A DNA stretch of 64,000 nt from Deltaproteobacteria bacterium (GTDB lineage: Bacteria; SAR324; JACQKK01), in contig JAOUEW010000001.1 of NCBI GenBank assembly GCA_029858505.1, forward strand, positions 868,001-932,000, given 5' to 3'. A program made the position numbers and the translations under genes. Position 1 is the first letter of the stretch. Each line of letters opens with the position of its first letter. Below the pieces are notes generated by a model, which worked only from the letters and a program-made list of their open reading frames with translations, did not search any database and was not told where the DNA came from. Shown one piece after another: positions 12,111-18,476 of the stretch.

Positions 12111-13564
<1,454 letters not shown>

Positions 13565-13565
<1 letters not shown>

Positions 13566-13969
13566 TGGCCCACTTTTCCCTGGTGCTGCAAGATGCCACC
13601 CAGCACGAGCGAATCGATGGGGTGGAAAGCTTCGTGGGAGAAAATGCCTCTGGCCAGTTTGGCATTATGGCCGGGCACACCCGCATGCTGACGCACCTGA
13701 CCTTTGGTTTGGCCCGCTACCGTCAGGCGGGGGATACCTGGGTGTATTTGGCCCTGCCGGGGGCCCTGCTGCAGTTCATGAACAATGAAATGGTTCTTTC
13801 CACCACCCACTACCTGCGGGGAACGGATCATCAGGCCCTGGCCCAGGCGCTAGACACACAGTTGCGGGCTGAACAGGATAAAAAGAAAGAGATCAAAGAA
13901 AGTTTGGAACGCCTGGAACAGGAAATGCTGCTGGGATTGCTAAAGGTGGGATATGAGCAGGCGAGTTAG
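13565..13969 (+). CDS. atpC: N-ATPase F1 epsilon subunit
   Basis: A 134-residue epsilon subunit: an N-terminal beta-sandwich (about 1-85, including FGIMAGHTRMLTHL) and a C-terminal helical part (LDTQLRAEQDKKKEIKES). The start codon overlaps the atpD stop in TGATG, so translation is coupled. Epsilon links the rotor to the catalytic head and can inhibit hydrolysis. Order and size match the alternate-ATPase epsilon family (TIGR03166). Confidence 0.88.
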
Positions 13970-14231
13970 CCCCGAACAACTGAAGAAGAAGCTGGAGGAA
14001 CAAACCCGGCGCATGGTGCAGGCCGAGAAAGACCGCCCCACCCTGCTGGCCCAGACGGCCTTTCTGGGAATGTTGGGGGTGCTGTTCGCCCTGCCTATTG
14101 TGGTGGGGGCCTATCTGGGCAACTGGCTCGACACCCGCTCCGAGGGATACTCGATGGTGTGGACCATGTCGCTGCTGGTGGTGGGGGCCATTTCTGGCTT
14201 TGTGAACGTGTATCTGTTTTTACGGGATTAA
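13953..14231 (+). CDS. atpQ: N-ATPase AtpQ subunit (AtpI-like)
   Basis: A 92-residue membrane protein with a charged N-terminal helix (about 1-28) and two hydrophobic segments (about 32-54 and 65-88, the first ending in GAYLGNWLD). This is the AtpI/AtpQ layout found in N-ATPase operons between epsilon and the Fo genes; such proteins aid c-ring assembly or ion uptake. It overlaps the end of atpC by 17 bp. Only 11 bp separate it from atpB, so the usual next gene, atpR, is missing. Confidence 0.85.
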   Translation: MSRRVSPEQLKKKLEEQTRRMVQAEKDRPTLLAQTAFLGMLGVLFALPIVVGAYLGNWLDTRSEGYSMVWTMSLLVVGAISGFVNVYLFLRD

Positions 14232-14242
14232 CAGGAGAACCC

Positions 14243-14935
14243 ATGGAAGGCGCGGAAGCCCAAGGATTTGAACTCTACGGCGTGGAAATCTCCCCAGAGG
14301 TGACGACCACCTGGGGCATCATGGCGTTTCTGGTGGTGGTGGGGTTCATCGCCGGCAGGCTGCGCTCCAATTTCCCCGGGCGGTTCCAAACCGTAACCGA
14401 AGGGGCCGTGCTGGCGTTTTACGAGTCGGTAGAGGCCGTGCTGCCCGGCCGCGGCCGGGAGATTATGCCCCTGGTGGCCACGGCATGGTTGTTCATTGGG
14501 GCGGCCAACCTGTTGGGGTTAATTCCTGGGCTGCACTCTCCCACCGCCCACCTGTCGGTCACCGCCGCCCTGGCGGTGATTGTGTTCGTGTCGGTGCATT
14601 ACCTGGGCATTAAGCACTCGGGTCTGCGGGCTTACCTGAAGCATTATTTGTCGCCCAGCCCCATTCTGCTGCCCTTTCATATCGTCTCTGAAATCAGCCG
14701 CACCCTGGCCCTGGCGGTTCGGTTGTTTGGCAACATGATGAGCTTGGAGATGGCCGCCCTGATGGTGTTTTTGGTGGCGCCGCTGTTGGTGGACGTGCCC
14801 GTGTTGTTCCTGCACATCATCGAAGCCCTGGTGCAGGCCTACATTTTTGGCGTGTTGACGCTGATTTACATTGCCGGGGCCATTCAGGCCCATGATTTGA
14901 AGAAAACCTCCCAACCCTCCCCCCAAAAGGAGTGA
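14243..14935 (+). CDS. atpB: N-ATPase Fo subunit a
   Basis: A 230-residue inner-membrane stator subunit that forms the two ion half-channels beside the c-ring. The essential Arg is seen in LALAVRLFGNMMS, and the last helix carries EALVQAYIFGVLTLIYI. Five to six hydrophobic segments are evident. The ATG at 14243 is set by AGGAG at 14233-14237; the frame stays open upstream to 14159 only inside atpQ. The length is shorter than standard subunit a (about 270), as is normal in N-ATPases. Confidence 0.92.
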   Translation: MEGAEAQGFELYGVEISPEVTTTWGIMAFLVVVGFIAGRLRSNFPGRFQTVTEGAVLAFYESVEAVLPGRGREIMPLVATAWLFIGAANLLGLIPGLHSPTAHLSVTAALAVIVFVSVHYLGIKHSGLRAYLKHYLSPSPILLPFHIVSEISRTLALAVRLFGNMMSLEMAALMVFLVAPLLVDVPVLFLHIIEALVQAYIFGVLTLIYIAGAIQAHDLKKTSQPSPQKE

Positions 14936-14940
14936 TTTGC

Positions 14941-15198
14941 ATGGAAAGCATCATTTTATTTTCCACCGTGGCGGCCGTGGTGGCCATTGCCATCGGCACC
15001 ATGGGTCCGGCCCTGGCCATGGGCCGCTCCATTGCCCAGGCGCTGGAATCCCTGGCCCGGCAGCCTGAAGCCGAAAAGGCCATTACCCGCACCTTGTTCA
15101 TTGGCTTGGCCATGATCGAGTCTTTGGCCATTTACTGCTTGGTCATCGTGTTGATTGTGTTGTTCCGCAACCCGCTGTTTCAGTATTTGGGAAAGTAA
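14941..15198 (+). CDS. atpE: N-ATPase Fo subunit c (rotor ring)
   Basis: An 85-residue hairpin of two transmembrane helices joined by the ARQPEA loop (residues 39-44). The ion-binding carboxylate is E60 in AMIESLAIYC, followed by S61 and Y65, as in Na+-binding c rings. The helix-1 ligand position, 33 residues before the Glu (Gln32 in Ilyobacter numbering, often Glu in N-ATPases), is M27 here (GPALAMGRS). The Na+ site is therefore incomplete by this alignment, and proton coupling is possible. The ATG at 14941 follows AGGAG at 9 bases; a GTG at 14932 is less likely. A 182 bp gap follows before atpF. Confidence 0.93.
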   Translation: MESIILFSTVAAVVAIAIGTMGPALAMGRSIAQALESLARQPEAEKAITRTLFIGLAMIESLAIYCLVIVLIVLFRNPLFQYLGK

Positions 15199-15200
15199 GC

Positions 15201-15221
15201 CATCCCACCGCCGGTGGATGG
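15201..15221 (+). other. hairpin in the atpE-atpF gap
   Basis: The atpE-atpF gap (15199-15380) has no ORF I can support. At its start, CATCC-C-ACCG-C-CGGT-GGATG can fold into a 9 bp stem with one bulge and a very tight loop. It directly follows the atpE stop and could protect the c-subunit transcript end or dampen read-through. No T-run follows, so it is not a standard terminator. Confidence 0.35.
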
Positions 15222-15380
15222 CGATGATCCTTCGGGCTTCACAAGGCGAATGGATTCGTCATTCGGCGGCGATCCAGCCCCATTTCCAATGGAGAGGGGC
15301 GATGGGGTGCTGGGGATGGTCGCCCGGCAGTTTGAAAGAACATCATTCATTGGCCCGTGAACGGGCCGGGAGAAACCACC

Positions 15381-16142
15381 GTGGATTTTCAGATTCCCAC
15401 CTTTGCCTTCGAGATCATCAACTTTCTGGCGCTGGTGTGGCTGCTCCAGCGGTTTTTCTACAAGCCAGTGCTGGGCGTCATCGACCGCCGCAAGGCCATG
15501 GTGGATAAAATCATGTCCGATGCCCAAGATATTCAGCGCCAAGCGGAAGAGTTGGAAAGCCAGTACAAGCAAAAATTGCAGATTTGGCAGGATGAAAAAA
15601 CCGAGGCCCGCAAAGCCCTGAAGGAAGAGATGGACAACGAACGGGCCCGGGCCTTGGCGGATCTGGAGGAGCGCCTGTCGCGGGAGGAAGCCAAACTGAA
15701 AACCCGCGTGGAAAGCAAGATGCGGGAATTGACCCGCGACGCGGAGGTGTCGGCCCTGGAAATGGCCGGGGGATTCATGAGCCATTTGCTCAGCCGGGTG
15801 ACCGGCCCCCAGCTGGAAGAAGCCCTGGTGGCCATGGCCATTGAAGACTTGGGCAAACTGGATGAAGAGAAAAAGCGGGAGTTGACCAAAACCCTGGCTG
15901 AGGGCACCGCCGAGGTGGCCACGGCCTATCCCCTGCCAGCCAAAAGCCGCCAGGCGCTGGAAGCCGCCCTGGGGGCCCTGGGGAAGGCCACCCCCAAAAC
16001 CCGTTACCAAGAAGACCCCGCCCTGGTGGCGGGGATGCGAATCAATCTGGCCCATTGGGTACTAAAGGCCAATCTGGCCGATGAACTGAAGTTTTTCCAG
16101 GAGGAGGCCCATGGCCAAAGCCGGCGAATTACCAACGGTTGA
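15381..16142 (+). CDS. atpF: N-ATPase subunit b with delta-like C-terminal part
   Basis: A 253-residue stator subunit. One N-terminal membrane helix ([18 protein letters not shown]) is followed by a long charged coiled coil (about 45-150). A C-terminal part (about 175-250, with [25 protein letters not shown]) resembles the end of the delta/OSCP subunit. N-ATPases lack a separate delta gene, and this fused form (TIGR03321) takes its place. The GTG start at 15381 has GGGAG upstream; a GTG at 15357 is in frame but lacks a ribosome site. It overlaps atpA by 32 bp. Confidence 0.88.
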
Positions 16143-17607
16143 CCCCCCTTTTGCCCACAGCGCACAATTGTTTCGGGCCTACCAGCCCGCCCTGCGGGTG
16201 CAAGAACAAGGCCGCCTGATTTCCGTGGGCGACGGCGTGGCCTGGATTGAGGGCCTTCCCTCTGCCGCCATGGAAGAAATTTTGGTGATGGACGATGGCT
16301 CGACGGCCATGGTGTATCACCTCAGCGAGCGCCACGTGGGGGCCATTTTGCTGCGCCAAACCGAACGGCTGTCGGCTGGCACCCTGGTGCGGGGCACGGG
16401 CAAGCGCTTGCAAATTCCGGTGGGAGACCCCCTGCTGGGCCGGGTGATTGACCCCATGGGAAACCCCTTAGACGGCGAGCCCCCGGCGGAGGCCCACACC
16501 CGCTGGGTGCTGGACAACCCCGCTCCGGCCATTGTGGTGCGCGACTACGTGCAAACCCCCCTGTACACTGGCAGCAAAATCGTAGATACCATGATTCCCA
16601 TTGGCCGGGGCCAGCGCCAGCTGGTGCTGGGCGACAACGGGGTGGGAAAGTCTACCTTTGCCCTAGACACCATCATCCACCAAAAGGACCAGGGCGTGTT
16701 GTGCGTGCTGGTGCTGATCGGCCAGAAGCGCTCCTCGGTGGTGGATGCCATCAAGACCCTGCGGGAAAACGGCGCCATGGGCCACACGGTGGTGGTGGTG
16801 GCCGAGGCAACCTCCATGCCGGGCTTGAAGTACATGGCCCCCTACGCGGGCTGCGAAATTGCCGAGGCCTGGATGCACCAAGGGAAGGATACCCTGGTGA
16901 TTTACGATGACCTGTCTACCCACGCCCAGGCTTACCGCGAGCTGTCTTTGCTGCTGCGCCGCCCGCCAGGCCGCGAGGCCTATCCGGGGGATATTTTCTA
17001 TTTGCACGCCCGGCTGCTGGAGCGCTCTACCCGTTTGGCCCCGGCCCACGGCGGGGGTTCCATGACGGCCTTGCCGCTGGTGGAAACCAAACAGGGAGAG
17101 GTGTCTTCCTACATTCCCACCAACCTGATTTCCATCACCGATGGCCAGATTATTCTGGACCAAAAACTGTTTGCCGCGGGCTTTCTGCCGGCGGTCGACA
17201 TCCGGCGCAGCGTGTCTCGCATTGGGGGCAAGGCCCAGCACCCTCGGGTGATGAAAGAAGCCGGGCGCATGAAGTTGGACTACCTGCAGTTTTTGGAGCT
17301 GGAGGTGTTCACCCGCTTCGGTTCCAGGTTGGAGCCGGTGATGGCCAAAAAAATTCAACGGGGGCGGATTTTGCGGGAGGCCCTGAAGCAAGAGCAGTTG
17401 TCGACCAAGGCCCCTGGGTTTCACATGGCCTGGCTGGTGGCCTTTAACGAGGGCATGCTGGACGACCTGCCCCCGGACCGCATTCATTCCGCCCTGGATA
17501 AGCTAGAGGCCGAAGTGCGGGGGGCCAACCCCAGTCTGGAATCCTCTCGGGAGGAATGGCTGGGCTGGGTGAAGGGGTGGATGACCGCCATCCGGGAAAA
17601 CCCATGA
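16111..17607 (+). CDS. atpA: N-ATPase F1 alpha subunit
   Basis: A 498-residue nucleotide-binding, non-catalytic alpha subunit. It has an N-terminal beta-barrel (about 30-95), the P-loop GDNGVGKS at 174-181 (with Asn-Gly where standard alphas have R-x-T/G), then [16 protein letters not shown] around the Walker B strand, and the arginine-finger region [15 protein letters not shown]. Length and divergence fit the alternate alpha family (TIGR03324). The N-terminal delta-binding tail typical of ordinary alphas is different. It overlaps atpF by 32 bp and atpG by 4 bp (ATGA). Confidence 0.94.
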
Positions 17608-18476
17608 GCCGCCGAAAGGTTCTGGAGCATCGTCTCCATCAATACCGGGAGTTGAACAACATTCTGACGGCCATGAAGAACCTTTCCCTCATGGAGTCGG
17701 CCAAGCTCTCCCGCTATCAAGAGACCCAGAACCGAGTGGTGGAATCCATTCAAGAAGCCTCCACCGATTTCCACGATCATTTCCCTCAATTTCGCCTGCC
17801 GGAAGGGCTGCCGCCGGGGCCGTTGGTGTTGATCGGCTCCGAGCGGGGTTTTTGCGGCGACTTCAACGAAAAAGTGGTGACGGCCATGGACATGACCCTG
17901 GCCATCCATCCCCAGCCCAACCCCGACATCATTGCCGTGGGGCGGCGGCTGGCCCAGCGGCTGGAGGGAGACCCCCGGCTGGTCGAGGCCCTGGACGGCC
18001 CGAGCGTGCTGGAAGACCTGGACCACACCCTGCTGGAACTGGTAAACGCCCTGGTGAACCTGTGCCGCAAGCGGGGGGTGAACCCCCTGTCCATCACGGT
18101 GTTTTATCACCAGGTAGAGCCCCACCACATGGTGGAGGCGGGGGTGAAGGTGTACCGTCCCGCCGAGCATTTCATCCGCCACGCCCCCAAGCACCCCTAC
18201 CCGCCGCTGCTGGAGATGGACCCCGCCCTGTTTCACACCCAGTTGGTGGATGACTACCTGTTTGCCGTGCTGCATGGCCTGTTTTACACCACCCTGATGG
18301 CCGAGAACCTGCGCCGCCAGCAGCAAATGCAGTCGGCGCTGCAGCAGATGGACAAAAAGATTGCCGAATGGCAGATGCGGCTGAACAGCGTGCGCCAAGA
18401 AGAAATTACCGAGGAGATTGAGGAGATCATGCTCTCGGCGGAACACCTGTTGCGTAAGCAGCGGGAACAAATGTAG
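17604..18476 (+). CDS. atpG: N-ATPase F1 gamma subunit
   Basis: A 290-residue central-shaft subunit. The N-terminal helix ([29 protein letters not shown]) and the C-terminal helix (about 230-288) would form the coiled coil that turns inside the alpha/beta ring. Between them is a Rossmann-like domain starting at [15 protein letters not shown], which contains the conserved GLCG-like element as GFCGDFN. ATGA overlap with atpA shows coupling. It is the last gene of the operon, with 8 bp to the next ORF, which starts on the same strand. Confidence 0.9.

Follow-up and report, generated by a model that had tools for sequence, protein, structure and literature searches.

Methionine at the helix-1 ion-ligand position marks a large atpR-less clade of N-ATPases with a putative proton-coupled ring

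The c subunit encoded by atpE (14941..15198, forward strand) of the stretch analyzed here (the window, 64,000 nucleotides in full) shares the helix-2 Glu, Ser and Tyr of the Ilyobacter and Fusobacterium Na+ rings (PMC2359735, PMC3692424; here and below, papers are cited for their passages on these enzymes). The Gln/Glu32 and Thr67 of those rings are replaced by Met27 and Leu62. Is this a peculiarity of one genome, and does it describe a switch to proton coupling, a reduced sodium site or a ring that accepts neither ion?

The operon and the ion site of its c subunit

The window holds a full and intact operon on the forward strand with the order atpD-C-Q-B-E-F-A-G, which is the N-ATPase order atpDCQRBEFAG minus R. 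It consists of atpD for the beta subunit (12153..13565; TIGR03305 581 bits, cut-off 752; TIGR01039 577 bits, cut-off 463), atpC for epsilon (13565..13969), atpQ (13953..14231; ATPase_gene1, PF09527), atpB for the a subunit (14243..14935), atpE, atpF for the b subunit (15381..16142), atpA for alpha (16111..17607) and atpG for gamma (17604..18476), with profile matches for atpC, atpA and atpG. A separate delta gene (atpH) is absent among the operon genes; the b subunit matches PF00430 and also PF00213, its residues 170-240 forming a fused C-terminal delta/OSCP stretch. The NCBIfam models for the alternate ATPase (TIGR03305, 03322, 03321, 03306 and 03324) all match, each below its cut-off, including TIGR03321 for atpF. 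atpB follows directly on atpQ, and the 11 bases between them (14232-14242) leave no space for atpR. No match to AtpR (PF12966) was found in the whole genome, which is 97.43% complete. The same genome carries a standard F-type enzyme, with a second c gene at C4:617311 and an F-type atpD at C5:65071.

The reading frame of atpE runs from an ATG at 14941 to a stop at 15198 and specifies 85 amino acids that match PF00137, with PRK13468 as the best NCBIfam model (114 bits, cut-off 116). AlphaFold predicted the monomer as a two-helix hairpin (mean pLDDT 82.6). In a phmmer comparison with the Ilyobacter ring (1yce), residues 5-84 aligned to 10-89 with equal spans (80 and 80), so that positions 27, 60, 61, 62 and 65 correspond without gaps to Ilyobacter 32, 65, 66, 67 and 70. 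Met27 (codon 15019..15021, +) takes the place of Ilyobacter Gln32 and Fusobacterium Glu32. Glu60, the ion carboxylate, is followed by Ser61 and Leu62 (15118..15126, +), and Tyr65 (15133..15135, +) is the equivalent of Tyr70. A preliminary description of this DNA had named E60, S61 and Y65, which we could read directly, and had placed M27 at the Gln32 position, which the equal spans bear out. It had overlooked a second change in the sodium site, the hydrophobic Leu62 where Ilyobacter has Thr67. With Met27 and Leu62 the ring lacks the complete sodium motif (Gln/Glu32, Glu65, Ser/Thr66, polar 67, Tyr70).

In the Fusobacterium ring Na+ is contacted by Glu32, the Val63 carbonyl oxygen, Glu65, Ser66 and a water held by Thr67 and the Ala64 carbonyl oxygen (PMC3692424). 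Two of these five contacts are removed or weakened here: Met27 deletes one ligand, and Leu62 takes away half the support of the Na+-site water.

A shift of the alignment that brings a different polar residue into the ion site, an objection raised in the preliminary description, was ruled out by aligning 90 relatives. Positions 24 and 26 are Ala in almost all of these, position 20 is Val, Thr, Ile, Ala or Met, position 22 is Leu, Phe, Gly and others, and no conserved polar helix-1 residue near the ion site was found among them. An assembly or gene error was ruled out as well, the identical motif being present in four same-family genomes. Positions 24, 26 and 28 form the AxAxG pattern that has been discussed for a c17 ring, which makes a large c ring plausible here.

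The spacer between atpE and atpF (15199-15380, +) has 182 bases, is present in a single copy in the genome and folds stabler than its shuffles (z -2.8 to -3.3). Several relatives have long atpE-atpF spacers, mostly without comparable folding, and between the c stop codon and the match to the b subunit lies a median of 16 bases in Met-type loci versus 3 in Glu/Gln-type loci. No Rfam match was found within the 64-kb window.

Distribution of the Met27/Leu62 type

N-type c genes were found in five of ten same-family genomes, this one included, and all five have Met. A scan of named genomes, with a query that itself contained Met, gave 80 loci, of which a first script read 64, all with Met; the other 16 were taken in afterwards. 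The titles of the scan records with Met include Thiohalocapsa, Legionella, Nitrosomonas, Nitrospira, Geobacter, Acidithiobacillus and others. TIGR03322 profile searches were run in 398, 297, 247, 198 and 369 genomes (overlapping sets), and their hits, merged with those from the same family, gave 107 distinct c sequences. The 35 MIESLAIY loci of the profile-search set comprised 29 with Met, 5 with Gln and 1 with Glu, at least five of the 35 being F-type (L237 among those with Met, and no fewer than four of those with Gln). L237 is a Nitrospirota F-type c subunit with Met where its relatives carry Gln. Altogether 238 c hits yielded 195 unique sequences, 188 of which were used in a tree of joined a and c subunits, and the final comparison set had 200 distinct rows with residues read by alignment.

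Met27/Leu62 without atpR is the mark of a large clade inside the N-ATPases and not peculiar to this genome; Met27, which the preliminary description had treated as an exception, is the rule within its clade. The Met clade has 103 distinct loci, with record titles that include Pseudomonadota, Nitrospira and Geobacter. The counts of 90 and 103 were selected by Met plus ESL..Y, which makes Met, Glu60, Ser61, Leu62 and Tyr65 circular in them; the non-circular checks are the loci from the NCBI profile searches, whose profiles were not built here, and Glu248 of the a subunit.

Upstream of the c gene, atpR was matched in 0/103 Met-clade loci compared to 63/69 loci of the EST/ESI type (the classical N-ATPases) and 12/13 of the ETM type. 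The helix-1 residue of the 69 EST/ESI-type enzymes is Glu in 61, Gln in 5 and Met in 3. Six of them had no upstream atpR hit (L159, L202, L211, L216, L193 and L295). An AtpR-like reading frame was found by eye in L159, the atpR of L202 lies at another place in the genome, and the sequences of L211 and L216 end early upstream.

Neighboring genes were considered as a clue to function and discarded. The clusters of reading frames round Met-type loci are mostly ATPase genes and their antisense shadows, and other neighbor families are common to few Met-type loci only, e.g., the Legionella loci.

The a subunit and the order of changes

The stator is altered alongside the rotor. In the a subunit of this operon Arg160 is the equivalent of E. 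coli aArg210, Glu169 (14747..14749, +) that of aGlu219, and the stretch from His191 to Glu194 (14813..14824, +), at E. coli aHis245 to aIle248, carries residues specific to the clade. In E. coli numbering, Arg210, Asn214, Gln252, His245 and Glu248 are present in 101/101 a subunits of the Met clade, and position 219 is Glu in 88, Gln in 9 and Asp in 4. Outside the clade, Glu248 is missing from all 94 a subunits of the set, and His245 occurs only in two Leu-type relatives. This pair lacks the helix-1 acid, atpR and Glu248. The classical N-ATPases have Gly245 in 64/67, usually Thr, Ala or Ser at 219 and mostly Thr at 248, and position 245 of ETM-type a subunits is Asp or Glu in 10/12. The presence of His245 and Glu248 across the clade is the contribution of the present analysis. 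The relevant passages of three papers on atpR-less enzymes (PMC12342949, PMC6688271, PMC4154653) make no mention of these stator residues or of an invariant Met, and a literature search on N-ATPase, methionine and ion site found no paper.

In E. coli aHis245 hands protons on directly, and Gly, Ser or Cys at this position abolishes function (PMC11121307). Since the F-type a subunits compared here, taken as proton enzymes, have Gly245 (22/22; His219 in 20/22), His245 is supportive of proton coupling and not diagnostic.

In the a+c tree the Met clade lies within a group of 92 members (support 1.0) that also holds two Nitrospirota sequences with Glu and atpR and two with Leu and no atpR. This group adjoins the ETM group (0.978) inside the N-ATPases (0.815). 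AtpD trees, which are independent of the c site, united the Met clade and the Leu pair with support 1.0 and placed the enzyme with N-ATPases and not with F-type enzymes; support for the split between N-type and F-type was 0.14 in the first tree and 0.901 in the second. The second tree added E. coli and one ESV-type sequence; of the two ESV-type loci, just one had a usable atpD. Here L218, a relative with Glu and atpR, was sister to the Met clade plus the Leu pair (0.719); some deep nodes were low (0.335-0.719), and the split between Met clade and Leu pair was weak (0.335). Taken together, the trees suggest as the simplest history an ancestor with Glu and atpR followed by changes on about one branch. 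On approximately the same branch of the AtpD tree, the acid of helix 1 and atpR would have disappeared and a-His245 would have been acquired.

How these changes hang together can be read in several ways. That proton coupling is older than Met27, the common ancestor with the ETM type having been proton-coupled already and Met27 being a later refinement, has in our judgment a somewhat less than even chance. The ETM group, in which Thr62/Met63 follow Glu61 in the Burkholderia pseudomallei type, keeps the helix-1 Glu in a ring measured as H+-specific; an acid occupies position 245 of most of its a subunits, and it joins the Met clade in the a+c tree and in one AtpD tree (0.984). The second AtpD tree, however, puts the ETM group elsewhere (0.433).

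All 101 enzymes with stator Glu248 have the rotor Met. On this basis Met27, instead of leaving the site vacant, might have been selected as a component of a distinct proton site. The rotor Met, the stator His245/Glu248 and the loss of AtpR would then have arisen nearly together, as one rotor-stator conversion from an N-ATPase with two carboxylates to a proton pump with one, in which an E. coli-like inlet evolved separately. We put this forward tentatively, its chances being clearly below even.

A mechanistic tie between the disappearance of atpR and that of the helix-1 acid, with AtpR handling the second carboxylate during ring assembly so that neither could persist alone, is unlikely. It would fit the distribution of upstream atpR given above, the absence of both features in the Leu pair and the case of genome G649, where atpR (L252:1437-1773) lies separate from the N-ATPase operon and the helix-1 Glu is retained. 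Exception loci already weaken this explanation. Met occurs together with atpR in L198, L200 and L201, which shows that neither Met nor atpR loss needs the other, and L203 has Gln yet no atpR in operon or genome. Nitrosomonas communis carries an orphan atpR (L255 / L280:5136-5522) apart from its Met-type operon. From these exceptions Met and loss of atpR are associated and not obligately linked. Met at the helix-1 position arose at least three times. The preliminary description had the ligand lost jointly with atpR and proposed to map both on a tree: both are absent here and map to about the same branch, but the coupling between them is partial.

The coupling ion and described variants

We consider it most likely that the operon encodes a working, proton-coupled N-ATPase. 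At roughly 80% probability, it is a complete N-type rotary ATPase, the second in this genome, with a rotor subunit from a large, atpR-less and proton-coupled clade, as judged from residues and gene content. Position 67 is polar in predicted sodium rings (Mulkidjanian, 2008; PMC2359735), and in single-hairpin c subunits the loss of one ligand likely hampers Na+ binding (PMC2359735). ProAD scores rings that lack any one of the sodium ligands as H+-specific and predicts 893 of 1807 N-type enzymes to use H+ and 914 Na+ (PMC11738941). The B. pseudomallei N-ring, with both glutamates, was found H+-specific by NCD-4 labeling; there, sequence-based prediction had failed in the opposite direction (PMC5376962). 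Retention of Ser61 and Tyr65 from the sodium set counts against the proton reading.

In such an enzyme H+ would bind Glu60, held by Ser61 and Tyr65, while the Met27 side chain, Gln-like in shape, would fill the helix-1 slot. The entry route of protons may lead by a-Glu169 and a-His191, as it does in E. coli, and AtpR would be dispensable for this ring. Beside the normal F-type enzyme, the main task of this one may be ATP-driven proton pumping that serves to control pH or potential.

That Na+ coupling is kept by a reduced site of Glu60, Ser61, a backbone carbonyl and waters is improbable. Ser61, Tyr65 and Met58 match N-ATPases predicted to use sodium, but the helix-1 Gln/Glu and the Thr67 hydroxyl are gone, the predicted sodium rings in PMC2359735 are all polar at position 67, and the stator is of the proton type. 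A non-functional ring is still harder to credit, the existence of one decayed relative (L168) being set against an intact operon, the invariant a-Arg210, Asn214 and Gln252 equivalents and a widespread, conserved clade. L168 (L283:4257-4526 in genome G098) is an orphan gene for a c-like protein akin to the Met type, with no essential Glu and no other ATPase genes nearby.

The switch to proton coupling suggested in the preliminary description is thus retained as the best reading, in line with the published rules and the stator His, while two claims made around it need revision. A ring tolerating neither standard site is unlikely because the whole clade conserves the ion site and its partners, and the premise of a sodium set kept by N-ATPases as a rule is outdated in view of the ProAD numbers and the B. 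pseudomallei ring.

The feature is real and has been described before; the stator residues are the additional clue. Most Nitrospiraceae N-type ATPases lack E32 and atpR, have Leu for T67 and may move H+ (PMC12342949, ISME J 2025). The present enzyme resembles them in these three features, in an atpQ of family PF09527 and in its gene set; it differs in coming from another group, and the relevant passages of that paper do not mention the wider clade. Methylacidiphilum strains Kam1, SolV and V4 have an atpDCQBEF:HAG operon that lacks both atpR and ESTxxY, for which a role in pH homeostasis was proposed (PMC6688271, 2019). It is atpR-less like the present one, lies outside our sampled set, and the passage on it does not give the helix-1 residue. 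Both N-ATPases of Nitrosococcus halophilus also lack atpR (Koumandou and Kossida; PMC4154653). In light of these published atpR-less variants the present enzyme is a further member of a described variant.

The B. pseudomallei N1No-ATPase (c17; PMC5376962) is likewise an N-type second ATPase with the AxAxG helix-1 packing motif and an H+-specific ring; it differs in having two carboxylates (Glu30 and Glu61) and Thr62/Met63, and its sampled ETM relatives mostly have atpR. E. coli FoF1 shares a hydrophobic helix-1 residue (Ile28) and the a-Glu219/a-His245 pair, whereas its Asp61-Ala62, separate delta subunit and gene order are different. The view of N-ATPases as sodium pumps by default needs correcting, and the proton-type variant known from Nitrospiraceae represents a broad clade.

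Marinobacterium lutimaris (G058) and genome G171 each have three atpD genes, of F-type, classical N-type and Met-type. This co-occurrence offers a natural test of how rotor and stator change jointly with the coupling ion. In an N-ATPase operon on an Acaryochloris plasmid, a cation:proton antiporter gene (L247:7632-8861) is located between atpQ and atpR.
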